Source: Geobacteraceae bacterium (GTDB lineage: Bacteria > Desulfobacterota > Desulfuromonadia > Geobacterales > Pseudopelobacteraceae). From it: a stretch of DNA of 64,000 nt. Position numbers and translations under genes: made by a program. Each line of letters begins with the position of its first letter. Positions within the stretch are counted from its first letter, which is position 1. The notes under the pieces were generated by a model. That model was not told the origin of the DNA. It searched no databases and was given only the letters and a program-made list of their open reading frames with translations. Where the stretch lies: the NCBI GenBank assembly GCA_013336525.1, contig JAAXTM010000007.1:1-64000 (forward strand), given 5' to 3'. Positions 3,326-19,957 of this stretch are shown one piece after another.

Positions 3326-3382
3326 GAGGGGGGCAAGTGGCAAGGAAGAAATATAATTGTACAGCCCCTTCCCTTCTATCCC
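3319..3382. terminator. Possible bidirectional terminator between convergent genes
   Basis: GGGAT...AGA...GGGG at 3319-3332 can pair, with small bulges, with CCCC...TCT...ATCCC at 3365-3382. The structure overlaps both converging stop codons. The stem is imperfect and the T-tracts are weak, so this is tentative. Confidence 0.3.
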
Positions 3383-4794
3383 GCCCGCGACAACCGTTTG
3401 TTAAGCGCCTGACGGGTGATCCCCAGATATGCGGCAGCGAGACGCTGATTATTATCAGCCATTCGCAACGCCTCCGCGACCAGAAGGTCCTCAGCTCCTT
3501 TGAGGGTCGGAAACTTTTCGGCGAACGGACAGACCGGACAATAGTTGGTTACCTGATTTGGTAATACATTAGAGCGCAGGCCGTCGCCGATCGCCGCCAC
3601 AATCGACTCCAGTGATAAAATACGACTCCCGGAACGGGCAACGGCATCATGTATTATCGCTTCCAGTTCGCGGATATTACCGGGAAAACTGTAAGCTGAC
3701 AGATAACAGTTCAATTCTGGCGGAGCATTCGGAGTCATTTTACCAAGCGAGGCAGATGCCTTCTCCATAAAATGCGCCGTCAGTAACGGTATATCTTCGG
3801 GACGGTCACGGAGCGGCGGAAGATCTACACGGTGGCTGCAAAGGCGGTAATACAGATCTGGACGAAATATCCCCTGTTCCATCTTGAGTTTCAGATCAGC
3901 ATGCGTGGCCGCCACAATACGGACGTCACTCTTTAGCACCTTATCTGCACCGAGCGGCAGGTATTCCCCCTCCTGCAGCAGCCTTAGAAGTTTGACCTGT
4001 GATCCTGGCGTCAGATCGCCGATCTCGTCAAGAAAAAGGGTGCCGCCTGATGCCTGGCGTATCAAGCCCTCTCTGGCACTGTCAGCGCCGGTAAAGGCCC
4101 CGCGCAGATGTCCGAAGAGGGTGTCGCTGAACATGCCGTCATCCAGTCCGGCCAGGTTTATAGCCACAAACGGACCGTCCAGTCCACTCAATGTGTGAAC
4201 CGCCCTCGCAATCAGCTCTTTACCGGTACCGGTCTCTCCGGTAATCAGCACCGATTGCCGGGATGGAGCTACCGACTCAAGATACAGGAAAATAGCGCGC
4301 ATCCGCGCAGACTGTGTGATAATGCTGCTGAAAGCGGACTCATTTCCCAACGTTCCGTCAGAAAGGTGACGACGAAGGCGCTCCAGCTCATATTTTGTAT
4401 TGGCTCGCTCAAGAGAACGTTCCAGCATGATCTGCAGCTCTTCAAAATTCATGATCGGCTTTGACAGATAATCCCAGGCCCCCAAACGCATGGCCCGTAC
4501 CGCCTCATTTATCTCACCTACACCGGAAACAACTACAATCGGGGTGAATTCAGACTCTGCCGCAATCGTTTCCACCAGTGTAAAACCGTCCATCACCGGC
4601 ATCCGGAGATCTGTCATGACAATATCCGGGTGCTGACTACGGAACTGTTCCAGCCCGATTTGGCCGTTTTCGGCTGACAAAACCCTATAACCGATGTCGT
4701 CGAGATAGACCGTCAATGACTCGCGGACATACCGTTCATCTTCTACCACCAGAATGGTTGGCTGCTTTTCGGCAAATGTTTTCATAGTGGGCAT
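3376..4794 (-). CDS. Sigma-54-dependent response regulator at the end of the Pel operon
   Basis: An NtrC-family regulator of 472 residues: receiver domain (about 12-125, ILVVEDE and phospho-acceptor in VMTDLRMP), an AAA+ domain (about 150-385) with Walker A GETGTGKE, the sigma-54 contact loop GAFTGA and Walker B GTLFLDEIGD, and a Fis-type helix-turn-helix at the C-terminus (TRQALNKRL). A CPVC pair (Cys419, Cys422) sits in the linker just before the HTH. The start at 4794 has AAGGA nine bases upstream; an in-frame start at 4878 would overlap pelG and has no such site. The gene begins 17 bases after pelG ends, so it is probably co-transcribed with pel. Regulation of pel by this protein is an inference from position. 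Confidence 0.85.
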   Translation of the reverse strand: MPTMKTFAEKQPTILVVEDERYVRESLTVYLDDIGYRVLSAENGQIGLEQFRSQHPDIVMTDLRMPVMDGFTLVETIAAESEFTPIVVVSGVGEINEAVRAMRLGAWDYLSKPIMNFEELQIMLERSLERANTKYELERLRRHLSDGTLGNESAFSSIITQSARMRAIFLYLESVAPSRQSVLITGETGTGKELIARAVHTLSGLDGPFVAINLAGLDDGMFSDTLFGHLRGAFTGADSAREGLIRQASGGTLFLDEIGDLTPGSQVKLLRLLQEGEYLPLGADKVLKSDVRIVAATHADLKLKMEQGIFRPDLYYRLCSHRVDLPPLRDRPEDIPLLTAHFMEKASASLGKMTPNAPPELNCYLSAYSFPGNIRELEAIIHDAVARSGSRILSLESIVAAIGDGLRSNVLPNQVTNYCPVCPFAEKFPTLKGAEDLLVAEALRMADNNQRLAAAYLGITRQALNKRLSRAG

Positions 4795-4811
4795 TAACCG
4801 TCTTCCTTGAA

Positions 4812-6182
4812 TTATTGCAGCATGAACGTTTCGTATTCCAGATTGGTCAGATCCCGGTCCAGAACAAAAAGTCCGCACATTATGGTTATACAGAGCGATA
4901 CCGCAAAACCATAACCGTAGTAGAATGGTCCCATCATGATTGACAAAAGGCTAAGCAGAATATTCAGGGCGGTAAACAGCATCGTTAGCGACAATGCCCG
5001 CCTGCGCCGGTCCAGGTAAAAATAAATATTGAGAATACCCAGCAATACAACCTGAAAACCGGCTCCGGCGACATCAATATAGAGCAGCGGCAGGAATACC
5101 GTGGGAATGCCGAGTGTTTCAAGCAGGGCACGGCCCAGAATAAATACGGCAATGGTGGCAATGGCCTGAATCTTTATGATATCATAGATTCCCTCTCGCG
5201 CCATGCGCACCATTTCATCCTTCATTTCCTTGATATATGAAAGTGATCCGCCTTCACGTACAGCATCGTAATAACGGTCGTAGTATTCGACAAAGTCTGT
5301 CTCCATACGCACAAGAAAAACAGCCATGCCCGGCAGGATTGCCAGATACGCCAAAAATACCGGCAGATCGTAAATTTCAGAGGCATTCAGCGGACCGATA
5401 ACATTGCTGCCGGTATAGGGATGAAACCAGAAGACGAATTTGTCCGCCCAGATGCCAAGATTGTAAAACAGCCCGATAAAAACCAGAGCCAGGTGCATCC
5501 GCCCGTTGCGCAAAAAGTCGAACTCTATAATTACTCGTGAAGGGTAGTTTTTGAAGACAACAATCAGCATCCCCATCAGCAGCACAAACTGACCTGTCAG
5601 AAAGGCCAGCATAAGACCTTCAAGTCCCCACATTCTTAAAAACAATACAAGAGCCAGCGAAGTGCCATATCCTGAAGCAAAATTAAGAAGTATGGCTTTG
5701 TATGCTTTAAGCCCGGAAAGAAGGATCGCTCCGATCCAGACAGCCGAAAGCATGACAAATGTGGTGGCAAACAGCAGCCTGAAATAAAGAGTATTCTTTG
5801 GGAATAGTAAATATGTAGCCGGAAAGGCCACCAAACCGCCAACAATAGTGACCAGGAACAGCAGACCTATCAGGTTGGGCATCAGCCGGTAATGTTCTTT
5901 TTCGAATATCCTGTCAGCACAATATCGGGTAAAAGCCAACTGGGTCAGGCCGGTATAGATGAGCGACAGTGCTATAAGATAGGTGATACAGACCTGGAAC
6001 TGTGAAATCAATATGTTCGGAATAACCATCGGGACAGAGATAATGCCGATAATAAGTACTGCCAGAATGGAGAGTACCCATGGGCCGGAACTGATAATGC
6101 CGGCGTAAGCATAGGTCTGAAGCAGAGAAAAATACGAATCCCTTTTCAGAAGTTTGCGCAGCTCGAAGCCGATCCCGGCCAT
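4812..6182 (-). CDS. pelG: PelG, inner-membrane Pel polysaccharide transporter
   Basis: A protein of 456 residues with about twelve hydrophobic segments, matching PelG, the polytopic inner-membrane protein of the MOP flippase superfamily that works with PelD, PelE and PelF in Pel synthesis and export. The N-terminal MAGIGFELRKLL motif, followed by a first membrane span, is characteristic of PelG. Its length equals that of the Pseudomonas protein (about 456). It overlaps the last base of pelF (TGATG type) and is followed by the response regulator after 17 bases. Translational coupling with pelF is likely. Confidence 0.93.
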   Translation of the reverse strand: MAGIGFELRKLLKRDSYFSLLQTYAYAGIISSGPWVLSILAVLIIGIISVPMVIPNILISQFQVCITYLIALSLIYTGLTQLAFTRYCADRIFEKEHYRLMPNLIGLLFLVTIVGGLVAFPATYLLFPKNTLYFRLLFATTFVMLSAVWIGAILLSGLKAYKAILLNFASGYGTSLALVLFLRMWGLEGLMLAFLTGQFVLLMGMLIVVFKNYPSRVIIEFDFLRNGRMHLALVFIGLFYNLGIWADKFVFWFHPYTGSNVIGPLNASEIYDLPVFLAYLAILPGMAVFLVRMETDFVEYYDRYYDAVREGGSLSYIKEMKDEMVRMAREGIYDIIKIQAIATIAVFILGRALLETLGIPTVFLPLLYIDVAGAGFQVVLLGILNIYFYLDRRRRALSLTMLFTALNILLSLLSIMMGPFYYGYGFAVSLCITIMCGLFVLDRDLTNLEYETFMLQ

Positions 6183-7693
6183 CAGTTCATCCCCTTCTGG
6201 TAAAATTTACGATAACTGTCAAACATCCTTTCCTGCGAATAAAAGCGCTCAACACGCTCAATTGCCGACCGGCGAGCCCGCCGCCATTCAGCAGGATTAC
6301 CCAGAAGCTGCAGAATCTCCGTTGCCATGGCCTGCGGATCGTTGATGCCGACAACCCCACCGGCGGCACCAATGGCTTCATCTGCTTCTCCAGACCCCAT
6401 AATCAGTTGCCTGCAGGCACCAACGTCAGTAGAAACAACCGGAAGTCCCGCCGCAAAAGCCTCCAGAATAACAAGTGGGAGCCCCTCACTGACGGAGCTA
6501 AGCACCAGCACTCCGGTTTTAGGAAAAATTTCCGCCGGATTCCGGAATCCCATGAAAATGATCTGACTATCCAGCACAAGACTTTCCGTAAGCGACTTGC
6601 ATTCAGCAGCGTACTCAGGGTCTTCGTCCTCAGGACCGATTATCCACCCCTGAACTGTCGGGATATGGTTTGCAATGATGCGAACAGTACGGATAAATGT
6701 TTTGATATCTTTGATCGGAACAACCCTGCCAAGAAGTGCCAACACCATCGGCGGATTCTCCGGCTGATCACTCCTTAACTTGGCATATCTGGCAATATCG
6801 ATACCGTTCGGTACGACCTGAGTGCGTTCAGGCAGCGCACCATCAGCAATTTGTCGTTCTCTGGCACCATCATAAAGCGATATTATTGTGCCGGAAGCGA
6901 CATAACAGAAGCGACCGATTGTCTCAAAAAAACGAATCCAAAGATCGCGAAAAAAACTGATCTCTGTCGGATCTTTCTGGAGCGCATTGCGGTTATCCTG
7001 TATCCAGCTGCTCTGAATTAAATCGATGCGGCGCTCTTTCGTATAAATGCCGTGCTCCGACAATATGAGCGGACGACCGGTATTGTAATGTAGTAATGAG
7101 CCGAGAAAGCCGGCATATCCGGTGGAAACCGTGTGATACATCCTGGCCGGGATCAGATTACTGGCGATTTCTGCCAGGAGCCAGATAGGGGCGTGCATGT
7201 TGCGGGCTGTCCAGAAATAATCAACAAATGAAGGATCGGTACAGCGCTCCTCGTAAAGTTCCGAAATCAGCTCCCACGACTGCTGAGAATAAAGAAACTG
7301 CCGGTAATCGATCCCTTTGTCCGGGTTCATATAAAAGTCCAGATCCTTGAGAGAAGGGTTGAGAGTATTCGGATCCGGCTTAAGAAACCAGGCATGCAGC
7401 CCCCTGACCACCTCAAATGCTTCCTTATTCCCTTCATGGGCAATTATCCTCGGCTTCGTCCGATGATCCTGCAGATAATGGGCTTCCAGATGGACCAGAT
7501 TTTCTGGAAGCTCATACTTCATGCCACCATAATCTTCTCGACTGCTGCCGATAAAGACAGCACCGAAACGATAATCCGGGAAGCCGCGTATTATCTGGTT
7601 TACCCAACTGGACACACCACCGCTTACATAAGGAAATGTCCCCTCTAGTAGCAGCATGATGTCCACCTGGTCTGATTTTGGAAAATTATCCAT
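6182..7693 (-). CDS. pelF: PelF, cytosolic Pel glycosyltransferase (GT4)
   Basis: A soluble GT-B fold glycosyltransferase of 503 residues, the polymerase of the Pel system; in studied homologues it uses UDP-GlcNAc/GalNAc. The N-terminal DIMLLLEGTFPYVSGGVSSW motif is typical of PelF, including the glycine-rich loop. The retaining-enzyme EX7E motif is present as Glu403 and Glu411 (EGLPLVILE). The gene lies four bases downstream of pelE and overlaps the start of pelG. Its length matches the family (about 500). Confidence 0.95.
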   Translation of the reverse strand: MDNFPKSDQVDIMLLLEGTFPYVSGGVSSWVNQIIRGFPDYRFGAVFIGSSREDYGGMKYELPENLVHLEAHYLQDHRTKPRIIAHEGNKEAFEVVRGLHAWFLKPDPNTLNPSLKDLDFYMNPDKGIDYRQFLYSQQSWELISELYEERCTDPSFVDYFWTARNMHAPIWLLAEIASNLIPARMYHTVSTGYAGFLGSLLHYNTGRPLILSEHGIYTKERRIDLIQSSWIQDNRNALQKDPTEISFFRDLWIRFFETIGRFCYVASGTIISLYDGARERQIADGALPERTQVVPNGIDIARYAKLRSDQPENPPMVLALLGRVVPIKDIKTFIRTVRIIANHIPTVQGWIIGPEDEDPEYAAECKSLTESLVLDSQIIFMGFRNPAEIFPKTGVLVLSSVSEGLPLVILEAFAAGLPVVSTDVGACRQLIMGSGEADEAIGAAGGVVGINDPQAMATEILQLLGNPAEWRRARRSAIERVERFYSQERMFDSYRKFYQKGMN

Positions 7694-7697
7694 CCGG

Positions 7698-8624
7698 TTA
7701 TTCCATCCAGAACTTTGCTACCGGGCCAATACCCGGTTTATGGCGCAACAGAGGATCATCTGTAAAAAACTGTTTCAACGCTTTAAAGTCCCTTTGGCGA
7801 TAAGCCAGCTCAGCAAGATAGGGTATTACCCTGTCACGATGAGCTCCACGTACCAGCCCCAGGTTTATGAATTTTTGTGCCAACTGAAAATCCCCTTTAC
7901 GCAGGTGAATTTTCCCAATGAGAATCAATAGTGAGTGGTCATCGACCTCAGCATTATATGCCTGAGTGGCATAATGCAAAGATTGCTCGATAAAAAATTG
8001 CGACAGATCATTGTTCAGTTCGTTAAAGACCATCTCCCAGTAGGAGAATGCCAGTGATCTAAATAAATGCCGCTTTTCACCCTCGTCATTCTGGTCATCA
8101 AACTCCCGAAGTTTATGCAAGGCTTCAGAAATCGAAGCGCCAATAACCTTTTCACGCTGGTCGTAAAGTTTAAATGCCAGCAACCTGATTTCATCATCAC
8201 TGTCACTGGTAGCCATCTGCAGCAGTCGACTTGAGTTGGACCCACCTCCGGCGTTGACTGCCAACAGCGCCTTCAGACGCATACCACGTGGGAGCTCAGG
8301 AGCGCGAAGACGGGACCATGCCCCCCCCTCTCCCATTCCTTGCGCCAGACCTCCTGATTCAGCCATAAAAGGAGGTGTACTAACTGTATAGAATTCAGTC
8401 CTCTCCTTAAAATATTGGAAATAACGAAAATATATCAATATCAAGAAAATCCCCAGAGCTCCAAACACCGGGATAAACAAGATAAAAGCGAAAATGATGA
8501 TCACGGCATAACGCTGACGAACTTCGAAGCGGTCAGGAATCATTGAAGTCAGCATGAGTGAAAACAGTGCCGAAATAATGGCATGTACTGGCAGAAACTG
8601 TATCATCTGGCTTGTGCCACTCAT
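7698..8624 (-). CDS. pelE: PelE, inner-membrane TPR protein
   Basis: A protein of 308 residues. Two hydrophobic segments near the N-terminus (about residues 10-28 and 37-60) are followed by a soluble helical region with TPR-like repeats (about 105-300), the layout of PelE, which assembles with PelD and PelG in the inner membrane. Its start overlaps the pelD stop by four bases (ATGA). The recognisable identity is mainly position plus topology, since PelE diverges quickly. Confidence 0.85.
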   Translation of the reverse strand: MSGTSQMIQFLPVHAIISALFSLMLTSMIPDRFEVRQRYAVIIIFAFILFIPVFGALGIFLILIYFRYFQYFKERTEFYTVSTPPFMAESGGLAQGMGEGGAWSRLRAPELPRGMRLKALLAVNAGGGSNSSRLLQMATSDSDDEIRLLAFKLYDQREKVIGASISEALHKLREFDDQNDEGEKRHLFRSLAFSYWEMVFNELNNDLSQFFIEQSLHYATQAYNAEVDDHSLLILIGKIHLRKGDFQLAQKFINLGLVRGAHRDRVIPYLAELAYRQRDFKALKQFFTDDPLLRHKPGIGPVAKFWME

Positions 8625-9940
8625 GCCACTTCCACATCAACAAGCAAATCAGCCAACTGATGCAACGGATCATCAGCCGCCACCATAAAAGATCTTGACG
8701 TTACGCCACCTTCGCTGATTTTCACTCCGAAATCTTTACGGAACATCTCGTTCAGTCTTGCCATGTAGCCTTCTACGGCTGCAGGCCCGGAGAACGGCAT
8801 CAGGGTTGCGAACTGAACCCCCCATCCCAAATCCCTGCGCCACCCGTGATCCAGACCACGCTGCTGCCTTTCAAGCGCAAGACAAATTTCGTGAAGCCTT
8901 CCAGTAGGCTTTATATTAACCACAACCAATGCGCTCGTAACATCCAGTTCACGCCGCAGCCGAACCATCTTGTACAATTCTGCAGCAAACATCGTTGGAC
9001 AATCAGGAAATACTGTCAGCAGGCTGCGGGCTTCATAGGCAGCCTCGGCGTGATCCGTTGCATACGCAAGCAAAACGCCCATTATCTGAAGCGTTTCACG
9101 TTTCAGTGCAAGAAAAGGCATTTCACTAACGAGCAGAATTCCTTTTGTAATTCCGGAGCTTGTACGCAGCGGGGCGGCCACCAGATAAGGGCTTTTCTCG
9201 TCTTGAGCAAGACGGTTTATCGACTGGTATGAGGCATTTCCTGTCTCAATGGCAGATCTGAGCAGCAGGTCATCCGCTTTCAAGTCTGCTCCGCTCCCAC
9301 ACACGGCCACCGGTTTTTCCTGTATTTTCCCGTTATTTTCCATCAAATATATTGCAGCGCTCTCAAGACTGCAGTAATGCACCAAGATTGAAATCATCGC
9401 TGAACCGGTCTCCTGGTCCAACACCCCCCCATGTGAAGCAAGTAAGCCGCGTAGGTCGACCAAGGCGTCACGCAGCGTCACCGGTCTACTTATAAGATTC
9501 TGTTCCAGGCGATCGTGAGACAGACGCACCATGAAATAGGACCGCGACAACTGTTCGAACCGCTCGCTTGCATGGCGGCTCAACTGGTCTGAGCGCCGTA
9601 AACGCGTACTCCATACGGAACTGAACTGACCACAAACCATGGTCATCAGAATGCCGCCAAGCATAAAGATCGTCGGGAATTCTCCTGTTAGAAGTCCCAT
9701 TCTGAAAAGTGACAAATAGAGCAGACAGATTATGGCCATAGAAACCATACCTGGAGAGATCCCGTAACGAAGCGCTATCAGCAGCGGGGCAAACAAAACC
9801 CACTGAAAATCAGCCTTGATGAAAAACGGGTCTGAGCGATTTAAGAAATATCCCCCTGCAAGGATTATCCCAGTGATAACAAGCGTCTCCAGCCATTTTT
9901 CCGTTCTCTCGGAAAGATATTTATTAAGCATGAAACTCAT
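8621..9940 (-). CDS. pelD: PelD, cyclic-di-GMP receptor of the Pel complex
   Basis: A protein of 439 residues. There are about four N-terminal membrane segments (residues 18-110), then a short coiled coil, a GAF domain (about 150-300) and a degenerate GGDEF domain (about 310-435). The signature GGDEF active site is absent, but an RxxD inhibitory-site motif is kept as Arg330-Glu-Leu-Asp333. In Pseudomonas PelD this motif binds cyclic-di-GMP and switches on synthesis. The gene is flanked by four-base overlaps with pelC and pelE, so translation is coupled. Cyclic-di-GMP binding here is inferred from motif conservation. Confidence 0.92.
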   Translation of the reverse strand: MSFMLNKYLSERTEKWLETLVITGIILAGGYFLNRSDPFFIKADFQWVLFAPLLIALRYGISPGMVSMAIICLLYLSLFRMGLLTGEFPTIFMLGGILMTMVCGQFSSVWSTRLRRSDQLSRHASERFEQLSRSYFMVRLSHDRLEQNLISRPVTLRDALVDLRGLLASHGGVLDQETGSAMISILVHYCSLESAAIYLMENNGKIQEKPVAVCGSGADLKADDLLLRSAIETGNASYQSINRLAQDEKSPYLVAAPLRTSSGITKGILLVSEMPFLALKRETLQIMGVLLAYATDHAEAAYEARSLLTVFPDCPTMFAAELYKMVRLRRELDVTSALVVVNIKPTGRLHEICLALERQQRGLDHGWRRDLGWGVQFATLMPFSGPAAVEGYMARLNEMFRKDFGVKISEGGVTSRSFMVAADDPLHQLADLLVDVEVA

Positions 9941-10488
9941 TTTTGCGGATTCTTGGACTGATTTTCAGGCAGCACCCTGATTTCTCCTAAAAGGCGGTCC
10001 AGCACCTGTTGTGCAACTGAACTGACCGCATCACGGCTCCAGCCGCTCTTGCCGGCTGCACCACTCCAGACGACCCTTCCCTCCGGCAACTCTATAAGCT
10101 GCAGGGTGAAGGCGGCCACCGGTTCGCCATCCAGGCCGACTTTGTAGCGCCATTCATTAACAGAGCCGGTCAGCACATAGCGCACTTTTTTCTGCTTTGC
10201 CAGCTCCAGAGCTTCACGCTGGCGCTTTTCACCACGGTCCATGCCCAGCTCTTCCGGTTTTGGCTCAACCGCAATCCGCTCCAGATGCTGTACACCACGC
10301 GCATAAAGCAGCGCGGCAACAATTGATTCACACCGCTCGGCTGCATACGGTGTCTCGGTGTTGTTGATAAATGGAATCAGGCCCCAGCTTTCCTGAAAGG
10401 AGACCTCTGTCCCGCTCTGGTGCAAGGTCACACAACCGGCCAAGCTTAGAGTTGCCGCAATTAGAAGCATTGTCATCAAACGTTTCAT
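9937..10488 (-). CDS. pelC: PelC, outer-membrane lipoprotein of the Pel secretion pore
   Basis: A lipoprotein of 183 residues. The signal peptide ends in a lipobox (LAGC, about residues 15-18). In Pseudomonas, PelC forms a dodecameric ring under the PelB barrel. The ATG at 10488 is chosen because GAGGAGG lies just upstream and the lipoprotein signal begins there; an in-frame upstream start at 10602 would overlap pelB by about 100 bases. It starts 13 bases after the pelB stop and overlaps pelD by four bases. Confidence 0.9.
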   Translation of the reverse strand: MKRLMTMLLIAATLSLAGCVTLHQSGTEVSFQESWGLIPFINNTETPYAAERCESIVAALLYARGVQHLERIAVEPKPEELGMDRGEKRQREALELAKQKKVRYVLTGSVNEWRYKVGLDGEPVAAFTLQLIELPEGRVVWSGAAGKSGWSRDAVSSVAQQVLDRLLGEIRVLPENQSKNPQK

Positions 10489-10501
10489 AGTTCCTCCTCG
10501 G

Positions 10502-13330
10502 TCAATCAAAATAATAGCGATACAGCAGTTCTGCTCGTGTAGTAAGAGCGCTGATTCCAAAAGAACCGCTATCTTGTGAAAAAGACAGTTCCAGCTTATC
10601 AAGCCCGAATACCGGGCCTACCAGACCAAAGTCATAGTGAAATCCGGTACCTGTTGTACTGGTCCAGCTTGCATCAGCAGAAGCAAAGGGCCCCCATCGT
10701 CTCACGTAATTTATACGCCCATCCTGCCCGACATTTATGCCGATGCCGGCCTGGGTAAAAGTTGCGGGAACATAAAAGGATGGATCGGCAACGGCACCAG
10801 GTATCAGCGAAAGCGCCTTGCCGGAAGGTATACCGGTTTTTTCATAGTAATGATATCCACTAAATGCTCGCAGATTTGTGTCAGGCCAACTGCTCAAAAG
10901 CCGGTGTGTCAACTCACCCTCAAAGGAAGACCCTCTGCCCATATCCCGGCGTTCCTGATCACGCAAATATCTCCCTGAAACCCGAAGGGAAAGCATATCA
11001 CGTGGCGATAGCGCTGCCACCAAGCCGATCCTGGCCTCATCCTTGATTCCGCCGATCTTCATATACACATTTTCTGTCCCGGCCGTTCCCGTCAAAAGTG
11101 CAAAATCCATTGTCAAGCGACTGTTCATCCTCCAGTTACTCTGTAATGATGATGACAAATAACGGGAAAGAGCGTCGGTAACGCCAGCGGTGAACTCGGC
11201 AGTTCCCCTTTCATGGCGCATTAGCAACCCAATCTGAGCATTCTGCGCGCTACTGGCATATTCCCCAAGAATACCGGCTTTTTGATGCCTGATGTCAGTA
11301 TTACCGACCTCAACACGCAAGGAATAGCGTGGAGCAACCGCAAATGTGTTGGATATACGCTGTTCTATAAAGCCCACTCCATCCTGATCCATCAGACTCA
11401 TACGATAACGAAAGCCGCCAGGGCGACTGCCGTAGAGAGTTCGTAACTGCTGATCAAGAAGATGGTCGCGGTCGTTGACCTGGAAGCGTTCAAAAGCATG
11501 AGTCTCGGCAACAGGAGTCCACCCGACACGCGATGCAGCTTCAACAGCATCCCTGTATGGAAGGCGCTGCAGCTCCTTTTGCAATAACCCCATTATTCGG
11601 GGACGGTCATTCTCATCCAGGGCCTGTGAAAGTTCCACCCAAAGTGGCCGCCTGGTCATACGGGCAAGCTCTTTCCAGTACCATATCCGGCCAAAATCGC
11701 TCCTGCCGCTGGACATCGCCCAGGCAATAACCAGTTCGCGGCTGACCGCGTCCTGTGGAGAATGCATAATTGCCTGCATCTGCCGGTCAACTGCCTCACC
11801 CGGTTCAACCCGCATTGCCAGAGAGGCATAACGGTACAGCAAAGTGCGCCGCTCTGTTTCTGGCAATGTCTGAACGCTTTTCATCTGTTTACGCACAAGA
11901 TGGAGCGCCCGCAGCCTCTCTAAAAAAGCCGGTTCCGGCCAGCCGGACTGTTCCATGGCATCAGCGTAACCGGCCAGCCACGAGGGGTCATTACGCATTT
12001 TACCGTAACGCGCCTGAAAATATATCAGAGCCTTACCGTATTCTCCCAGATATGAGTAAGCCGCAGCATATGTGTCAAACATATCCGGCGTTGATTGCAC
12101 ACGCTCTTTCCAGCCTTCCAGCGTACTTTGCAGCTCTTCTCTTTCCCCCAGATCAATCAGCAGCCAGATATATCCCTCAGCCAGTGACAGGTCGTGCGGC
12201 GCAAGGGCAAGTGCATGTCGATAGCTGCGTATACTTGCAGGCAAATCTCCGGCGCCTCGATATACCTGTGAAACAAGCCGCCAATAATAAACCGACTCCT
12301 CCATTGGCTCAAAAAATGACGAGTGTTGTGACTTCTGTATAATGGTTAAAAGTTCCTTGTAACGTTTCTGGGCCGAGCCAAGTTCCAGCAGGGTGATCAG
12401 AAACCCTCCCTTGCCCAAACGCCCCCAGGCTTCCATAGCTATATCATAAGCCAGGCCAGGGTCCTTTTCCCGGGTTATCAGGATCAGGCGCTGATAATCC
12501 ATATCGCGCCCAACACCTGCATCCACCAATAATCGCGCAGCCTTTTCCGCAGTGCTTAAATCCTGCAGCGCCCAAGCTAAATCACCGAATGTTTGCCAGT
12601 ATTCCTGTTCAGCTGTCGGAATCTGCTGTTTGCCAAGACTTAAAATTGTATAAGCCGCCGAGGCATCACCCGAACCATAAGACAGAGAGGCTGCCCTGAG
12701 CAATTCTGTAGCAATCATCCCATAACTTGCCGCTTTATCGAGTAGAGCAGTTATTGCGTCGGCATGACGACCAACCGTTTCATATAGACGGGCAAGCTGT
12801 TCAAGCACATACTTCCGGTCCGCCCCACCCCGCTGTTTTTCCAATGCCGCAATTGCATCTTCCGGAGCACCGGACAACTCACAAACAGTAACATATTCCC
12901 TGAGCAGCTCCGAGTTATCGGTAAAACCGCGCATTTCAAGCAGGAACTTTAGTTTGGCTCCGTCTCCAAGCGCCCGAGACAGCCTGAATGATTGATCAAC
13001 TGCATTTTGCTGATGAAGCTCCTTGGCAAGAAAAAACCAATGTTCCAGGGCCTTGACAGAATTTCCGGACCATTCTCCGCTCTGTGCCGCTTTGCGGCGC
13101 CATAGCGGGTCGCGCGGTCTTGAGAGGACTGCCTTTTCTGCAAGTAGAAATGCTTCAGCAGAGTTACTATTGGCAAGAAAGACATCATAACTGAGCCCAT
13201 AAAGTTCCGCATCAAAGGGTGTTACAGGGGCCATCGGAGGTGGAGGCTCTTCAGCACGGCACAAAATGGCAGCACTGAAAGGCGGTGCGGTCAGTAAAAG
13301 CGCAGTTATCCAGCGAAGAGCACTATTCAT
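10502..13330 (-). CDS. pelB: PelB, C-terminal part: periplasmic TPRs and outer-membrane beta-barrel
   Basis: A protein of 942 residues with its own signal peptide (about 1-26, ending ILCRAEE). Many TPR-like helical repeats (about 35-560) are followed by a beta-rich region (about 600-942) with alternating hydrophobic strands and a C-terminal aromatic strand (LLYRYYFD), as expected for an outer-membrane porin. This matches the TPR and barrel portion of PelB, through which Pel leaves the cell. In Pseudomonas PelB is a single protein of nearly 1200 residues with an N-terminal membrane anchor; here the anchor portion is encoded by a separate gene upstream. The two genes overlap by four bases. The split looks like normal gene organisation rather than a frameshift, because this part carries its own cleavable-type signal. 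Confidence 0.88.
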   Translation of the reverse strand: MNSALRWITALLLTAPPFSAAILCRAEEPPPPMAPVTPFDAELYGLSYDVFLANSNSAEAFLLAEKAVLSRPRDPLWRRKAAQSGEWSGNSVKALEHWFFLAKELHQQNAVDQSFRLSRALGDGAKLKFLLEMRGFTDNSELLREYVTVCELSGAPEDAIAALEKQRGGADRKYVLEQLARLYETVGRHADAITALLDKAASYGMIATELLRAASLSYGSGDASAAYTILSLGKQQIPTAEQEYWQTFGDLAWALQDLSTAEKAARLLVDAGVGRDMDYQRLILITREKDPGLAYDIAMEAWGRLGKGGFLITLLELGSAQKRYKELLTIIQKSQHSSFFEPMEESVYYWRLVSQVYRGAGDLPASIRSYRHALALAPHDLSLAEGYIWLLIDLGEREELQSTLEGWKERVQSTPDMFDTYAAAYSYLGEYGKALIYFQARYGKMRNDPSWLAGYADAMEQSGWPEPAFLERLRALHLVRKQMKSVQTLPETERRTLLYRYASLAMRVEPGEAVDRQMQAIMHSPQDAVSRELVIAWAMSSGRSDFGRIWYWKELARMTRRPLWVELSQALDENDRPRIMGLLQKELQRLPYRDAVEAASRVGWTPVAETHAFERFQVNDRDHLLDQQLRTLYGSRPGGFRYRMSLMDQDGVGFIEQRISNTFAVAPRYSLRVEVGNTDIRHQKAGILGEYASSAQNAQIGLLMRHERGTAEFTAGVTDALSRYLSSSLQSNWRMNSRLTMDFALLTGTAGTENVYMKIGGIKDEARIGLVAALSPRDMLSLRVSGRYLRDQERRDMGRGSSFEGELTHRLLSSWPDTNLRAFSGYHYYEKTGIPSGKALSLIPGAVADPSFYVPATFTQAGIGINVGQDGRINYVRRWGPFASADASWTSTTGTGFHYDFGLVGPVFGLDKLELSFSQDSGSFGISALTTRAELLYRYYFD

Positions 13331-14217
13331 GAAGCTCCCGCCTGATGCCTGGACGTTTCCATACCGAGAGCTCGCCTTACAAGTCGCTGAGCCCGTGCCG
13401 GCTGCCCGGCTGCCAATCCGACCCTGGTCAGAAAAATCAGGGTGTCGCGGTCTGAATATAGTCCATCAATATTTAGTTCGCCCGCTTCAAATGCCTCTTT
13501 TGGCAGGTTGCCAGCCTGCAGCATACGCACAGCACGAAAAAACAACTCCCTCCGTTTTGCAAGCGTATCGGCCTGTTTCATCTGTTCGAAACAGATAGCA
13601 GCACCCCTGCGATAATCACCGGCTATCTGAGCCTTTGCCGATTCATCGTTCGGTTGCTCGTTCTCCAGAGTTTCCATGGCAGCGAATTTTCGGCTGTATT
13701 CCTGCCATAATTCCAGATCTCCAGCTTTACGCGCATCGTTGGCGAAATCGCGCAAACGCCAGGCCGGCGGGTTCTTGCCTCCCAATTCTATGGCGGCCGA
13801 AGCGACAAGAGGTTTCAGGCGAAGCCACTCTGCGCTGCCAGGATCAGACTGGGCAAACATGTTTTTTAATGCCATATATTTCAGTTCGATCAGCACATGT
13901 TTTTGGGCCGCGGTAATCCCGACGGGAACACCCGAAAGGAGATCAAGAGCCTTGCGAGGGCTGCCGGAACGAACCAGCGAGCCTGCCACCCTGAAACGCA
14001 ACTCCGTATCATCCGGGCGAATGCGCAGCAGCGCCTCCTGGTAACGAATTGTAGTTGCATCATCGCTGGTGCCAAGAACACCAAGCAGGCCCTGCTCCGG
14101 ATAAAGGAGGACCAGCACCAGCATAAAGGCAAAAAAAATCCCGATTACACCCAGAGGTGTAGCAAAGCGCTCTCTCTTTGGTGCATCAGGATTATCGGCA
14201 GTCGACTGTGAGCGCAT
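13327..14217 (-). CDS. pelB: PelB, N-terminal part: membrane-anchored TPR protein
   Basis: A protein of 296 residues with a short cytoplasmic N-terminus, one membrane segment (about 22-45: GVIGIFFAFMLVLVLLYPE) and then TPR-like repeats (about 60-290) facing the periplasm. Its position between pelA and the barrel gene and its topology match the N-terminal membrane and TPR region of single-chain PelB. The ATG at 14217 has GAAGGA closely upstream; an in-frame ATG at 14250 has no such site. It overlaps the end of pelA by 26 bases and the next gene by four. Alternative: a separate accessory TPR protein rather than part of PelB. Confidence 0.75.
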   Translation of the reverse strand: MRSQSTADNPDAPKRERFATPLGVIGIFFAFMLVLVLLYPEQGLLGVLGTSDDATTIRYQEALLRIRPDDTELRFRVAGSLVRSGSPRKALDLLSGVPVGITAAQKHVLIELKYMALKNMFAQSDPGSAEWLRLKPLVASAAIELGGKNPPAWRLRDFANDARKAGDLELWQEYSRKFAAMETLENEQPNDESAKAQIAGDYRRGAAICFEQMKQADTLAKRRELFFRAVRMLQAGNLPKEAFEAGELNIDGLYSDRDTLIFLTRVGLAAGQPARAQRLVRRALGMETSRHQAGAS

Positions 14218-16954
14218 GCTTTCCTTCAGGCAGCTCCGCCACCAGTTCATTGATATTGCCGCTTGTCACAGTTTTGATACCTTTAGGAAAACGACACCCC
14301 TTGGCATTGGCAATACTGACTTTAAATGGCGTATAACCATGCAATCCCAGCTTCATACCATTTTTGCTCCGTTCAAAGCCGTCCAGAAAACCTCCGGCAG
14401 AGGCAAGATACGGCTCGCCAGGTGATGACTGTACAAGCGTCACCAGCGCCTCACCGCCAGGCAGCAGATGCAGGTAGCGGCTGTCACCATGGTCGTTGAA
14501 CCCAGCTACTTTATTGCTGTTTTTCAGATCAGGGTATCCAAGAGTGCGGGGAATACGCAGCTGGCGCAGCTGACCATTATTGCGTATCAACCAGCCGGAA
14601 CCGTCCCAGGCAATTACCGTTCGATTGTAGTCAAGCACCTTCTCGATATATTCTGACGTGTAAACAGCAAACAGTCTCTGGCCAATAGCCCAGTCATGCA
14701 CTTGCTTTAGGGCGTTCAGTGATGCCTCTTTGGTTGCGGAGTAAAAATGGTAGTAGATATTAACCGGTTTAAGCCGCATAGGTGAATCCGTTAGACGGAA
14801 GGTTTCCAACACTCGTTTATAACCATAGAACGGTCCGGTCCAGAGATTTGTATAAACATTTTCGTTTTGATTCGGGGCAAAAACTTGAAAAAAATCCCCT
14901 CTTGGTATGCCCAGAGGAGCAACATTACTGATACTGCGATTAGATCCGGTGATCACAGTATCGCCGCCGTTTATATTAAGGGCACCAGCTTCGTAGGTCA
15001 TCCTGACGGCCTCTTCTCCCGGCACGCAGTTTCCGGTCCACTGGAAGATGCGTGCCCTTTTCCCAGGTGGCATCAAGTTTTGGTTAATATAGTCCAGCGA
15101 ACCAGAAATCTCCGCCCCCAGGCTGAAGCTGTACCCCGGATTTTTTACCGCAGGCCAGACCTGTGTTCCTGTATCAGTCTGGTCCGGCTTCCACCTGAAT
15201 GGATGCGAAAATGAATGGCTGGCTCCCTCCACATTTGGGAGTTCCAGAATACCTCGGGCTATTTTCTCCAGTTGCGGTGCCAGAAGAGGCTTTATGCCGT
15301 TTTGCGTAAAGGAGCTGGTGATCAGCGAGATTGTTGTCGGTATGCGGTAGCGCTCCAGGATATGCGTACGCAGCTCCTCAGCCGCAAACTTTCCACCTGG
15401 CCACTCAGCGCGGCTCTCGAAACCGTCACCGTCAACATGGGACAGTAGTAGTCGCACTCCATTCTCTGTAGAGACATCCGGAACCGGCATGTCCCGAAGA
15501 CGCAACGCATCTTTGAAAAAGCTTAACGGATTCACAACCCAAGCGGTTTGTTCTCCAAAAAAAGGCGCCATTACATAGGGTTCGAGCACATAACCACCCC
15601 AGGTGGTTATCGCTGCTGCATCACTGACAATCCCATTGCCTGACAGTAGTTGCAGCAAAGGCTTTCCGGTCATTATCTTTATCGGTGTAAAGTTATCAGT
15701 TTTCGGTAGTGGTTGCTGTTCATAACCAATATGCTGATCTTTCAAAACAATCTTGATCGGCGGAACAATCTTATCTGCAGGCACCGATTCCAAACCGAGT
15801 GGAGACAGAAAACCGGCATCAAGTGTCACGCCGAAACGATCTAAAAAGACAATTGGAACACCTTCAGAAACACGCCGTAACGCCCAATCCTTTAGTCCCC
15901 GCTTTTCCCCGGAACGATCTGAATAGGGCCACACAAGCACGCCGGCATATCGTCCTTCAAGAATCCCTTCAGGCAATTTTTCCCTCAGATCATGCAGCTT
16001 TACAGTATACCCAAGGTAATTCAGCGGCATTACCGCATAACGCTGAAGGTTGGCAAAGAAGGCGTCCCCATTCCCTTCGGCACCGTCATAAAGCCCAAGC
16101 ACTGTCCGCGGCATAACCTCCACCGACCCGACACCCAAACTTGCCAGATCCTTGTCTGCCACCCAAGGGATGAAACCTAGCTCCTTGATTTTTTCTGCAG
16201 TCTTTCTGGCAAGATCGCGTTTTCCCGGCGGGACATAGTCTATGGCAATCACCGGCACGCCAGCGCTTTTGACCTCGTTCAGCTTAGCAGTCAGCCACTC
16301 ACGGTCATTAGGCGGCACTTTGCCGTATTGGCCGGTGGCTGGACTGAAGTTTTGATACAGGGATTCCGCTGCAACAGCAAAAACAATGTCTTTAACCTTG
16401 GGAAAGATCTCAAAGCCGCGATTAAGGATCAGGCGCGCTTCAGGATGGCGCACTTTGATCGCACGCACGGTCTCAGCAAGGCCTGATTCCATGGCAGCCA
16501 GCTTGCTTTTATCGGTTGACAGCTGATATGAATCCATCGTGTCGAGAAAAAAACCCCTGTACCCTGCCTTCCACAAAGGTCCGACCACTTTATCCAGAAA
16601 AAATTCGCGCCACTCGGGATTTGAAACGTCTATAACCTTTGAATTCCAGTCCTTGTTCTCGCCACAAAACCATTTTCTATTCATCTGTTTTGTGTAGTTG
16701 CGATTGGGGTCTGCCTCTCCGGCACTGACGTAGGCAAACAGGTTGCTCGGACCTGTACCGTAGGCCTCAGGTGTCAGACCGCTGTCTGGGTCAACAACTA
16801 CAACATCAAATGCCTTCAGTTCATTGATCGGGGGATTAGAAGCGTAAAAAACTGCAGTGCTGAATGATTTTGGTGAAGAAGCACCCCAGGCCGTTCCGCA
16901 GAAAGTCATAACAGCACTCAATAAAATCAGACGAACATAACCCTGAATCGTCAT
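14192..16954 (-). CDS. pelA: PelA, periplasmic Pel hydrolase and deacetylase
   Basis: A protein of 920 residues, close to the 948 of Pseudomonas PelA. A signal peptide (about 1-24) is followed by a GH114-like glycoside hydrolase domain (about 40-270; acidic pocket residues in FFLDTMDSY near residue 138 and in VAAESLY near 198), a central flavodoxin/reductase-like region (about 285-490) and a polysaccharide deacetylase domain (about 500-760). The metal-binding residues of the deacetylase are recognisable: His506-Val-Asp508-Gly-Asp510 and His580/His584 in ASHSFSH. PelA partly deacetylates Pel and can cleave it. It lies 60 bases after the sensor kinase gene on the same strand. Confidence 0.94.
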   Translation of the reverse strand: MTIQGYVRLILLSAVMTFCGTAWGASSPKSFSTAVFYASNPPINELKAFDVVVVDPDSGLTPEAYGTGPSNLFAYVSAGEADPNRNYTKQMNRKWFCGENKDWNSKVIDVSNPEWREFFLDKVVGPLWKAGYRGFFLDTMDSYQLSTDKSKLAAMESGLAETVRAIKVRHPEARLILNRGFEIFPKVKDIVFAVAAESLYQNFSPATGQYGKVPPNDREWLTAKLNEVKSAGVPVIAIDYVPPGKRDLARKTAEKIKELGFIPWVADKDLASLGVGSVEVMPRTVLGLYDGAEGNGDAFFANLQRYAVMPLNYLGYTVKLHDLREKLPEGILEGRYAGVLVWPYSDRSGEKRGLKDWALRRVSEGVPIVFLDRFGVTLDAGFLSPLGLESVPADKIVPPIKIVLKDQHIGYEQQPLPKTDNFTPIKIMTGKPLLQLLSGNGIVSDAAAITTWGGYVLEPYVMAPFFGEQTAWVVNPLSFFKDALRLRDMPVPDVSTENGVRLLLSHVDGDGFESRAEWPGGKFAAEELRTHILERYRIPTTISLITSSFTQNGIKPLLAPQLEKIARGILELPNVEGASHSFSHPFRWKPDQTDTGTQVWPAVKNPGYSFSLGAEISGSLDYINQNLMPPGKRARIFQWTGNCVPGEEAVRMTYEAGALNINGGDTVITGSNRSISNVAPLGIPRGDFFQVFAPNQNENVYTNLWTGPFYGYKRVLETFRLTDSPMRLKPVNIYYHFYSATKEASLNALKQVHDWAIGQRLFAVYTSEYIEKVLDYNRTVIAWDGSGWLIRNNGQLRQLRIPRTLGYPDLKNSNKVAGFNDHGDSRYLHLLPGGEALVTLVQSSPGEPYLASAGGFLDGFERSKNGMKLGLHGYTPFKVSIANAKGCRFPKGIKTVTSGNINELVAELPEGKHALTVDCR

Positions 16955-17014
16955 AACAACCTCTTAACGCATTAATTCTAAGCACGCCTTTTAAAAGCAA
17001 AACAACAGTGCCCA

Positions 17015-19810
17015 CTACCGCAATGCATATGCCACTGCCCGGCTCAGCTCACTACGGTTATACGGTTTTTGAATAAAGCCGCTGGCGCCCAACCCTAACA
17101 GCTCTTCACCTGTGCCCTCACGGCTGAATCCGGAGCAGAACAGTACTCTCAAGTCTGGATCCATATCACGCAAGCGTAGAAAGGCTTCTTTGCCACCCAT
17201 CTTAGGCATAATCATGTCCAGCATAACCAGCGAGATATCGCCCCGGTTAGCAGCAAACACCTCCAGAGCCTGTTCCCCGTTTTCAGCAATATATACCGTA
17301 TATCCAAGATCAACTAAGAGGTCTTGACCGACTTCCCGCAGAATTTTTTCATCATCGACCAGAAGAATCCCGCCTTTACCGGCAACGGTATCATCATTTG
17401 ATACCGGAGGAACTATTTCACATTCTACCATCGGAAGGTAGATTTTGAACACCGAACCTACCCCCGGTTCGCTCTGTACATACAATTCGCCCTGATGACC
17501 CCGGACTGTTCCGTAAATAGACGCCAAGCCAAGCCCGGTACCTTTACCTACCTGTTTTGTGGTAAAAAACGGTTCGAAGATATGTCCAATAACCTCTTTT
17601 GTCATGCCGACCCCGGTATCCGACACAGCAATTTCAAGATAACGGCCGGATGCGAGGGATATGTTCATCAACCGGCAGGCTGATTCATCCAGCATCTTCA
17701 CGGTGGTTGCGTAGGTCAGAGTACCACCATCAGGCATGGCATCACGGGCGTTAACCCCCAGATTAAGAAGTGCATTCTGCAACTGGGTCTGATCTCCCAT
17801 TACTACAGGATTACTATCATCCAATCGTGACTTGATCTGTATCTGCTTGTCAATGGTTCGTTCCAGCAGACTAATGACAGCAGCAATGATGTCATGAATG
17901 CGAACCGGATTTGTTATTGTTGTACCTTTGCGGGAGAATGTCAGAAGCTCACGGGTCAGATCTGCGGAACGGGTAGTTGCTTCAATAATGGTATCCACCA
18001 GCTTGTTGTTTCTGTCATCACCCTGCAGGCGGCGCTTCAGCAGTTCGGCAGCGGCCATGATGCCGGCGAGCATATTATTGAAATCATGAGCAATGCCGCC
18101 GGCTAACTGGCCGACAACATCCATCTTCTGCGATTGAAGAAGTTGGTTTTGGAGCCGCTTCTGCTCCGACATATCCATAATGGCACTCAGGGTAAATGGT
18201 TTTCCGGCAATATCCAGAAGTGCCCCCGAGAAAAAGACCGCAAACAGCTCGCCACCCTTGCGGCGCATTTCGACTTCAAAATTGTGAACGTATTTTTCTT
18301 CCCGCAACTGCTGCAGAAACCGGTCACGATCGGATTCGTTCGCCCAGACTCCGAGTTCGACAGTGGTTTTGCCGATTGCCTCTTCGCGTGAGTAGCCAAA
18401 CATCTCGACAAAGGACTGATTTACCTCACTAAAGGTTCCTTCCGGCAAACTTGTGAGCGCAACCGTTATCGGTGAATGTTCAAAAACGGCCTTGAATTTT
18501 TGCGAACTCTCTTCAACCGCCTCCAACTGGACCCGCAGCATCTCTTCAGTAGCCAGCAGTTCGTTCTGACTCAGCATGTAGTCGTCGACCTGTGCACGCA
18601 GCATCTCTTCTGTCGCCAGCAGTTCCACCTGAGATTCCTGATACTCGTCGATTTTGAGACGCAGCATCTCCTCAAGACGTCGGCGTTTGCGGATGTTCAG
18701 GGCCAAGACCATCAAACCGGCCGTACAAAACATAATAAAGAAACTACCCAGCCAGACTGCGGTCTTGTTTATGGCAAAGGTAGAAGACCGTTTATTCATT
18801 ATTATCGAGCTGGCAGGAAGCTTGGCCGGGTTTATGTCAAATTTTTCCAGAACGCAGTAATCAAACATCGGACGGGATTGATTGTCGTTTATAACCGGCA
18901 GCTTTTCCGGGAGTTCTCCTCCGATAATTCGCGCAGCAAGATCCGCCGCCTTACTCCCTTGTGTCTGCCCCTCCAGCATCAGGCCGCCGACAACGCCTGC
19001 CCCCAGTTGAACTGCATGTACGGCATAAACCGGAACCGGACTGGCGCTGCTGACCAGACGGGCCGCCTCGTACTGACTGAAGGTCCGTCCACCTTTTTCA
19101 ACCGTGTATGAAAGCAACAACACCAGTTGGTCGGGAGATAAACTCTTCAGCTTTTCAACAGCTCTCTCCAGCGGCATTTCGTCAAGAAATTCAAATTTGA
19201 TGTGCGGATAACGAGCGGCTGTTCTTTCCATTTCACGGCGTATGGCCTGGCCGGTATCGGTTTGATCATGAATGGCGACAACACCACGTACCGAAGGGTG
19301 CATCCGGAGGGCCAATCCAAGAGTACCGGCAGAATCAAGGTATTCAGTAACCCCAGTGACTGAATGGTACCCGGCGATCATGGATGGTGCAAAATCATTA
19401 ATGCCGCAGAAAACCAGAGGGGTGTCTGGAGAAATACTCGGTCGGTACTGCAACGCAAACTCCAGCGCGGCATTATCCATAGCTATGATGACATCAAGTT
19501 TACGGGATGCATACTTGCCTTCAAGCAGGTCTGCCAGGCGTGGAAAGTGTTTTTTGGTATGGAAGTTTTTTGTATCTAGATATTCAACGAAGAGTTCCGT
19601 ACGAGGAAAAGCTTTTGACAGCCCTTCACGGACCCCTGCCATCTCATTTTCCGACCAATCGTAGCTGATATTATATGAATTGAGGACAAGAATGCGCGGA
19701 ACTGAGGAGGGAGCATGAAGCGGTGTTTCAGCAAAAGACTGTACAGGCCAGGCCATACTGGTGGCAATTATGAAACAAGCCAGATAAAAATGGCGTAGCA
19801 AAGCTCTCAT
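17015..19810 (-). CDS. Membrane hybrid histidine kinase with ABC-type binding-protein sensor, ahead of pel
   Basis: A hybrid kinase of 931 residues. A signal or anchor segment (about 8-28) precedes a periplasmic ABC substrate-binding-like domain (about 40-330, ILVLNSYN). Then come a membrane helix (about 350-372), a coiled coil with repeated LLATEEMLR units (about 375-440), one PAS domain (about 445-555), HisKA with His575 (GGIAHDFNN), HATPase (about 680-790) and a receiver domain (about 810-930; VMLDMIMP). The start at 19810 precedes the signal segment; the ribosome site is weak (GGGGTC). The gap to pelA is only 60 bases with no terminator seen, so it is likely the first gene of the Pel operon. 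The periplasmic ligand is unknown. Confidence 0.87.
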   Translation of the reverse strand: MRALLRHFYLACFIIATSMAWPVQSFAETPLHAPSSVPRILVLNSYNISYDWSENEMAGVREGLSKAFPRTELFVEYLDTKNFHTKKHFPRLADLLEGKYASRKLDVIIAMDNAALEFALQYRPSISPDTPLVFCGINDFAPSMIAGYHSVTGVTEYLDSAGTLGLALRMHPSVRGVVAIHDQTDTGQAIRREMERTAARYPHIKFEFLDEMPLERAVEKLKSLSPDQLVLLLSYTVEKGGRTFSQYEAARLVSSASPVPVYAVHAVQLGAGVVGGLMLEGQTQGSKAADLAARIIGGELPEKLPVINDNQSRPMFDYCVLEKFDINPAKLPASSIIMNKRSSTFAINKTAVWLGSFFIMFCTAGLMVLALNIRKRRRLEEMLRLKIDEYQESQVELLATEEMLRAQVDDYMLSQNELLATEEMLRVQLEAVEESSQKFKAVFEHSPITVALTSLPEGTFSEVNQSFVEMFGYSREEAIGKTTVELGVWANESDRDRFLQQLREEKYVHNFEVEMRRKGGELFAVFFSGALLDIAGKPFTLSAIMDMSEQKRLQNQLLQSQKMDVVGQLAGGIAHDFNNMLAGIMAAAELLKRRLQGDDRNNKLVDTIIEATTRSADLTRELLTFSRKGTTITNPVRIHDIIAAVISLLERTIDKQIQIKSRLDDSNPVVMGDQTQLQNALLNLGVNARDAMPDGGTLTYATTVKMLDESACRLMNISLASGRYLEIAVSDTGVGMTKEVIGHIFEPFFTTKQVGKGTGLGLASIYGTVRGHQGELYVQSEPGVGSVFKIYLPMVECEIVPPVSNDDTVAGKGGILLVDDEKILREVGQDLLVDLGYTVYIAENGEQALEVFAANRGDISLVMLDMIMPKMGGKEAFLRLRDMDPDLRVLFCSGFSREGTGEELLGLGASGFIQKPYNRSELSRAVAYALR

Positions 19811-19872: not shown

Positions 19873-19895
19873 AATAATGATCGTTATTCATTATC
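19873..19895. promoter_or_regulatory. Fur-box-like palindrome upstream of the kinase-pel operon
   Basis: AATAATGA (19873-19880) and TCATTATC (19888-19895) form a nearly perfect inverted repeat with a seven-base spacer. The A+T-rich half-sites resemble the GATAAT/ATTATC units of Fur boxes. The element lies 63 bases ahead of the kinase ATG, where an operator would be expected. No clear -10/-35 pair was identified with it. Confidence 0.4.
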
Positions 19896-19924
19896 ATATC
19901 TGCAAAGACTGCGAAACTAATTAA

Positions 19925-19957
19925 AACGGCCGTCAGGAATAAATCATGACGGCCGTT
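19925..19957 (-). terminator. Rho-independent terminator after the parvulin gene
   Basis: AACGGCCGTC (19925-19934) and GACGGCCGTT (19948-19957) form a perfect ten-pair stem. On the minus strand it is followed by TTTTAATT. It lies 34 bases after the stop codon of the peptidyl-prolyl isomerase gene and separates that gene from the kinase-pel unit. Confidence 0.75.

Follow-up and report, generated by a model that had tools for sequence, protein, structure and literature searches.

A pel operon between the genes of an older sensor kinase and sigma-54 regulator pair in a Geobacteraceae bacterium

The pel Locus and Its Flanking Signalling Genes

We analyzed a 64,000-nucleotide stretch of the genome of a Geobacteraceae bacterium (contig JAAXTM010000007.1, positions 1 to 64,000; hereafter, the window), in which the pel genes, encoding the Pel polysaccharide machinery, lie between a hybrid sensor kinase gene and the gene of a sigma-54-dependent response regulator. 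The ten genes are all located on the minus strand, from 19810 to 3376, in the order hybrid kinase, pelA, a pelB divided over two genes, pelC to pelG, and response regulator, with intergenic gaps of at most 60 bp throughout. This order and single orientation, as claimed in a first-pass annotation made from the sequence alone, were borne out by the open reading frames (ORFs) together with Pfam and NCBIfam matches, and the features are as follows:

17015..19810, minus strand: hybrid sensor kinase (signal/transmembrane segment, periplasmic ABC_sub_bind-like sensor, transmembrane segment, coiled coil, PAS, HisKA, HATPase, REC)
14192..16954, minus strand: pelA, GH114 hydrolase plus deacetylase (PF03537; PDB sequence match 9cgy, E 7e-166)
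13327..14250, minus strand: first pelB piece, 307 amino acids, N-terminal transmembrane segment, TPR-like (assigned from position and same-place homologues)
10502..13330, minus strand: second pelB piece, 942 amino acids, TPR and C-terminal beta barrel (PF24604, E 1.2e-51)
9937..10488, minus strand: pelC, lipoprotein (PDB matches 5t0z, E 1e-67, 9h80_C, 5t10 and 5t11; start most likely at 10488)
8621..9940, minus strand: pelD, receptor of cyclic di-GMP (c-di-GMP) (PelD GGDEF, PF16963; PDB 4dmz, E 1e-17)
7698..8624, minus strand: pelE (assigned from position and homologues 42-88% identical in order-level Pel loci)
6182..7693, minus strand: pelF, glycosyltransferase (NF038011, 740 bits against a cut-off of 100)
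4812..6182, minus strand: pelG (PF16933, E 2.9e-157)
3376..4794, minus strand: sigma-54-dependent response regulator (REC, AAA+ with GAFTGA, Fis-type helix-turn-helix; start most likely at 4794 or 4785)

The components by which a Pel operon is recognized, namely the PelF glycosyltransferase, PelG, PelD, PelA and an outer-membrane PelB barrel, occur here together. The place of a single pelB gene is taken by ORFs of 307 and 942 amino acids, with the same split in relatives, which we did not count as exclusion from Pel because pelB fission, as two loci in the pel operon, has already been described in aquatic thermophilic species (excerpts of PMC7112194). In comparison with those species, the split is an order-wide norm here, being found in all 20 readable loci of the order, the window included. 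The match of the second pelB gene to PelB chain 9h80_M covers residues 287-1071 (PDB sequence search, E 2e-21), and the first piece should therefore be the N-terminal part. This first piece gave weak TPR matches alone in Pfam and matched no PelB chain in the PDB, and it has a same-place homologue in all readable order-level Pel loci. For pelE, the Pfam match is weak, unrelated and below the gathering threshold. PelD retains the RxxD motif, QRGLD being aligned on the QRGLD of 4dmz, and is predicted to bind c-di-GMP.

The kinase, whose start was placed at 19810, has the Pfam architecture PAS-HisKA-HATPase-REC, and both the His of GGIAHDFNN and the REC Asp are invariant in an alignment of 17 kinases. 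It is a hybrid kinase, and Pfam Hpt had no match in any of the ten proteins. The suggestion that its periplasmic sensor is binding-protein-like held up: ABC_sub_bind was found in 14 of the 17 orthologues (the window copy, at 20.8 bits, lies below the gathering value of 25.9), and a profile search matched PDB 6hni over a 74-residue stretch (E 1.8e-4), supporting a place of the sensor among the ABC_sub_bind solute-binding proteins. A single-sequence PDB search of the sensor gave no match. AlphaFold2 modelling of the sensor from two sequences gave a predicted local distance difference test (pLDDT) of 53 and a predicted template modelling score (pTM) of 0.40, and Foldseek of the model returned 6hnj first, and also 3lkv and 3lft, in agreement with the sequence evidence; at template modelling scores (TM-scores) of about 0.3, this comparison is no independent proof of the fold. 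Between the window genome (G000) and its sister species (G009), the kinase is 79% identical (window 17015-19810 against L051 2930-5848; 76% in the sensor), while the regulator is 90% and PelG 93% identical, and this higher divergence suggests that the sensor may be changing ligand between the two species. In G018, the kinase beside the regulator (L062 6389-8395) has no sensor domain.

The regulator displays the Pfam architecture REC-Sigma54_activat-HTH_8; the HTH_8 match falls short of its gathering score in the window protein (19.8 vs 22) and passes it in the orthologue from G009 (25.5). REC, AAA+ with GAFTGA and a Fis-type helix-turn-helix (HTH) make it an NtrC-type regulator. Its HTH is nearly invariant across 11 orthologues, and RpoN is encoded in the window genome.

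Age of the Kinase–Regulator Pair and Position of the Insert

The regulator and the kinase sensor each served as query against 58 genomes, 37 of them from the genus (the window genome included). At least 76% identity to the regulator was found in 14 genus genomes (the window genome, G005, G006, G009, G013, G015, G017, G018, G019 and G025-G029). Kinase and regulator genes abut or overlap in ten of them (G013, G015, G017, G018, G019 and G025-G029, the G013 kinase being split over two contigs); pelA-G lies between the two genes in the window and in G009; and G005 and G006 have the regulator without the kinase. Seven other genomes (G010, G011, G012, G023, G024, G030 and G036) have the kinase without this regulator being found beside it, the sequence downstream of the G011 kinase being only 313 bp. 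As kinase-only and regulator-only genomes exist, the pair is not indivisible. Its partnership, which had been proposed from the window, is supported by the adjacency or overlap in ten relatives, though not owing to Pel. Adjacency of this kind is that of a cognate two-component pair, and judging from gene order the two proteins are almost certainly partners. The pair predates its association with pel and is also found apart from pel.

Between the kinase stop and the conserved VVxDE codon of the regulator lie 39 nt in eight of the ten insert-free genomes (30 in G025 and 42 in G018); in the window and G009, the same interval measures 12,266 and 12,281 nt. The kinase end (..SRAVAxALR) and the regulator start (MKTF.EKQPTILVVEDE) are much like those of the relatives and both genes are whole, so the insert sits between the stop of one and the start of the other. 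The PpiC gene is found immediately upstream of the kinase in nine of the ten insert-free genomes, G025 having two intervening genes, and the downstream flank is a PocR kinase in the window, as in G017, and a chemoreceptor in G009, as in G027. In the kinase tree, G000 and G009 are sisters (support 0.997) beside the insert-free G027, and they are also sisters in the regulator tree (1.0), G013 having been left out of both. An assembly artefact is unlikely as the cause of this arrangement, since two separate genomes have it. One insertion before the split of G000 and G009 is the simplest history, and the insertion of pelA-G between older kinase and regulator genes, taken alone, is a conclusion we hold with high confidence.

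Affinity and Distribution of the pel Genes

We then compared the pel genes with those of other genomes. PelG, PelF and PelA of the window share 93, 90 and 88% identity with those of G009, 78, 68 and 64% with those of G045, and 78, 71 and 60% with those of G042, the last two being genomes of other genera. Against genomes of the same genus, identity is 67-70% for PelG (G031, G038, G005 and G001) and 50-52% for PelA (G031, G038 and G005). Partial rpoB sequences, in a comparison where G038 and G053 gave no match, are 93-98% identical within the genus and 86-87% to G045 and G042. In the Pel tree, G000 and G009 group with G045 and G042 (support 0.995-1.0), apart from the same-genus G001/G005/G038 and G031, whereas rpoB places both inside their own genus. 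As Pel groups with other genera, contrary to rpoB, pel is most likely a horizontally acquired insert. A search for Pel on plasmids gave 22 records, the best place of each being below 60% identity.

PelG was found above cut-off in 6 of 39 genus genomes, 23 of 141 order genomes and 11 of 395 phylum genomes, the phylum sample overlapping the order set. All 23 order-level Pel loci were surveyed; of the 22 besides the window, 17 could be read on the upstream, pelA side and 20 on the downstream, pelG side. Only in the window and G009 does a sigma-54 regulator stand beside pelG (two loci being unreadable downstream), and a same-strand kinase upstream of pelA occurs, in readable loci, in the same two genomes and in G120, there with an intervening 155-amino acid ORF. 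Searches by tblastn, independent of ORF calls, agree with this survey: the sigma-54 AAA domain matched only in the window, in G009 and in the phylum locus of G244 (more than 13 kb from its pelG), and the kinase domain only in the window (also the PocR kinase), in G009 (twice), in G120 and in G244. The kinase–regulator pair is also absent from all readable parts of six further phylum Pel loci, some of them incomplete. Conservation of the gene order, which the first-pass annotation had named as support for its proposal, did not emerge from this survey.

Candidate Target of the Response Regulator

To the side of the regulator away from pel, a different conserved feature was found. In eight of eight genomes (G009, G027, G019, G029, G013, G026, G006 and G015), a -24/-12 site, TGGCAY-N5-CTGCW, lies 61-85 nt before the gene next to the regulator, with a score of 19.9, which 0.8% of random 300-nt stretches attain; in both genomes scanned for it (G027 and G009), this gene encodes an sCache_2 chemoreceptor. 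Two upstream blocks, U1 (TGCGACAAAAGTTGCTG) and U2 (GTCAA-N5-GTCGCW), stand 164-167 nt and 78-81 nt above the sigma-54 site, again in all eight. Promoter and upstream blocks lie in these stretches from the regulator to the next gene:

L023 2795-3042
L052 12157-12420
L055 7473-7741
L057 11423-11690
L063 2758-3024
L054 10041-10309
L060 7168-7662
L058 3272-3541

Five more genomes have the same trio. In G028 (sigma-54 score 18.9) and G025 it follows the regulator, in G018 and G017 it precedes a chemoreceptor, which in G017 is unlinked, and in G005 its U2 is degenerate. Altogether, all 13 other genomes with the regulator have a sigma-54 promoter with paired sites ahead of a chemoreceptor or of the next gene, and the linkage suggests that promoter, U1 and U2 are probably the regulator's own target and binding sites. 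A regulator dedicated to pel does not agree with this conserved, unrelated candidate target. The first-pass annotation had named unrelated regulator targets and a non-conserved gene order as grounds for giving up its proposal, and both are largely what we found.

In the window, U1 scores at most 14.3 and U2 at most 11.5, compared with 23.5-30.4 and 19.1-24.9 for the eight founding genomes, and the regulator's -24/-12 promoter with upstream sites was not found there. Two exact copies of the promoter elsewhere in the window genome have no strong U1 or U2 near them and no chemoreceptor. The chemoreceptor orthologue of this genome, 92% identical in the sensor, lies on another contig (L116, contig C14) behind a CheW-like gene, with no sigma-54 match of at least 18.5 in the stretch examined (best upstream, 17.7). 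The former arrangement of the target appears to have disappeared from the window lineage; G009 keeps the chemoreceptor target beside the insert, where the window genome is without it.

Transcription Signals around pel

Candidate transcription signals at the kinase gene are the following:

19923..19958, minus strand: terminator-like inverted repeat and T-run, after the PpiC gene and ahead of the kinase (read in the sequence)
19890..19916, minus strand: promoter-like block ahead of the kinase (TTTCRC, about 15-17 nt, TGnTA-type -10)
17019..17034, minus strand: sigma-54 promoter-like site of the -24/-12 type, TGGCATATGCATTGCG, within the final kinase codons and 80 bp upstream of pelA

The inverted repeat, which exceeds the loop limit of the terminator scan, is conserved in an alignment of 14 kinase upstream regions (3 of 17 were dropped before alignment). 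Counted by eye, the TGnTA-type element is present in 12 of these 14, G018 being without it and the G012 slice being cut, and the window copy deviates in the -35 part. Since the kinase upstream region retains this conserved promoter-like block, transcription into pel from the kinase promoter is likely. Moreover, a single transcript from kinase to regulator is plausible, as no terminator-like site was listed in the junction gaps between kinase and pelA or between pelG and regulator; terminator-like sites number 27 in the region, against 19.1 in shuffles. Predicted sigma-70 promoters inside the region were uninformative (19, vs 18.3 in shuffles), and riboswitch control was rejected, with no Rfam match at the gathering threshold in the window or in four Pel loci (L023, L022, L018 and L016).

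Origin and Regulation of the Arrangement

Based on these results, we propose that a complete pelA-G operon, acquired horizontally, entered the genome of an ancestor shared by the window species and G009, precisely between the hybrid kinase stop codon and the start codon of the cognate sigma-54 regulator, and that kinase, pelA-G and regulator would now be read as one unit from the old conserved promoter of the kinase. Pel would ride with the two-component system, while PelD would still gate synthesis by c-di-GMP. The kinase would phosphorylate the regulator on a periplasmic solute cue, and the conserved job of the regulator elsewhere would be to fire a sigma-54 promoter, via the paired upstream sites, before the chemoreceptor or next gene. 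As a whole, we regard this account as moderately probable. Several points weigh against it. Co-transcription, phosphotransfer and regulator binding to the paired sites are predictions from sequence; these sites are tied to the regulator by linkage only, the G017 copy being unlinked, and the eight genomes from which the U1/U2 profile was built match it by construction. In addition, the regulator tree leaves the neighbour of G000 and G009 open (0.48), the donor lineage was judged from 12 loci, and the GC content at third codon positions (GC3) of pel is like that of its neighbours, so that composition gives no sign of transfer. A weak terminator-like site lies just inside the kinase end (17093-17081). 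Finally, TGGCATATGCATTGCG has the best -24/-12 score in the 64-kb window, and its pattern, TGGCAYN5TTGC, occurs 26 times in the 3.5-Mb genome vs 9 times for the reversed pattern, with about 0.0007 expected per 200 bp on one strand.

This last site may indicate that pel was captured by the regulator, a sigma-54 promoter at the very end of the kinase gene now letting it drive pelA-G and itself directly; TGGCN7TTGC is kept in G009, and the required RpoN is encoded. However, the site is also coding sequence, and its G009 counterpart, which has lost the A after TGGC, is about the 11th best in its 20 kb, with a score of 17.7 that 7.9% of random 300-nt stretches reach. Moreover, neither genome has U1 or U2 up to 400 nt from pelA (best scores 6.0 and 2.1 in the window, 5.4 and 3.7 in G009) despite the nearly invariant HTH. 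Because these enhancer-like sites are absent upstream of pelA, a promoter function of TGGCATATGCATTGCG is doubtful; capture is in our view unlikely and, the G009 site being weak, riding on the kinase promoter is ranked above it as most likely. The first-pass annotation had instead seen a dedicated and conserved sensor-to-matrix module, self-contained, in which kinase, Pel and regulator co-evolved, and the gene order and short gaps, maintained in the sister species, would fit such a module. Nevertheless, the framing is known in 2 of the 23 order-level Pel loci, and the pair predates its pel link and lives without pel elsewhere, with another conserved candidate target; the survey largely refutes this view, and we consider it very improbable. 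That kinase, pel and regulator were together ancestrally, with pel deleted many times, is scarcely credible: no supporting point was found, the ten tight kinase–regulator junctions share their 39-nt spacing in eight cases, the insert carriers nest among insert-free genomes in the kinase tree, and the Pel tree conflicts with rpoB.

A wider reading would be that the insertion joined matrix genes, chemoreception and c-di-GMP turnover, read by PelD, under one sensor, and that the sigma-54 site at the end of the kinase gene then let the regulator drive both pel and itself; we find this rather doubtful. Such a loop, equally tentative, would arise from gene order, perhaps with different or weaker binding sites for the regulator within the kinase gene. 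Further downstream of the chemoreceptor, G027 has a REC-PAS-GGDEF-EAL gene.

Relation to Known Systems

The operon resembles pelABCDEFG of Pseudomonas aeruginosa in having all seven functions in the order A to G, in the matches of PelA to PelD to solved Pel proteins and in the RxxD motif, and differs from it in the two-gene pelB and in the kinase and sigma-54 regulator genes that flank it. In P. aeruginosa, FleQ reportedly responds to c-di-GMP at the pel promoter. Sensor and regulator genes also accompany other polysaccharide loci: sypF and sypG of Vibrio fischeri sit inside the syp cluster, and PrsK and a sigma-54 response regulator are the pair of the PEP-CTERM/XrtA exopolysaccharide-type system. 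Compared with the latter, our regulator matches TIGR02915 with 302.6 bits, below the curated cut-off of 502.6, and our kinase matches PrsK with 71.5 bits, below the curated cut-off of 300. In V. fischeri, the sensor kinase SypF activates SypG, a sigma-54-dependent regulator tied to the polysaccharide locus syp, which SypG activates directly (excerpts of PMC12369376). Unlike SypG, the regulator described here has its conserved candidate target elsewhere, and the polysaccharide is a different one; a Syp-type linkage of sensor, regulator and polysaccharide genes is seen in only those 2 of the 23 order-level Pel loci.

In the accessible portions of open-licence papers, we found none that places pel between kinase and regulator genes. 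The Pel machine and this kind of two-component pair are both known, and the parts are not new; what is new is the documentation of states before and after, with the conserved candidate target of the pair as a yardstick. How an acquired operon comes under host signalling usually has to be reconstructed much later. Here, a single genus offers both states, with ten joined-pair genomes and two that carry the insert; the site of insertion is narrowed to the gap from stop to start codon, and the probable old target of the pair, with its sites, serves as control. Whether arrival in a signalling operon suffices to bring a biofilm machine under regulation, or whether a new promoter has to evolve, becomes directly testable.

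Other Features of Pel Loci

Beyond the regulator, at 293-3325 of the window, a PocR-PAS hybrid kinase gene is convergent with it, 50 bp apart; G017, which has no pel there, carries a homologue in the corresponding position, with 75% identity over 363 amino acids at a contig edge. A REC-PAS-GGDEF gene is found near pelA in genus g2 (L015 18761-19999, L017 537-1814, L019 18677-19999 and L097 214-1590; L095 and L096 end before this region), with a DksA-like and a DUF362 gene in between, each named in one locus. Other c-di-GMP enzymes near Pel genes are a GGDEF-EAL protein encoded beside pelG in G005 and a REC-HD protein in G063. Moreover, Pel loci of several relatives have an extra ORF of about 580-630 amino acids between pelB and pelC or between pelC and pelD:

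L016 9466-11367
L018 7903-9648
L020 9707-11470
L021 8836-10620
L022 9601-11373
L024 10515-12263

In Pfam, three of four such ORFs were without a family and one had a weak fn3 match. Finally, G119 has a second, partial PelG-like fragment (L110 4254-4610), apart from its complete Pel locus.

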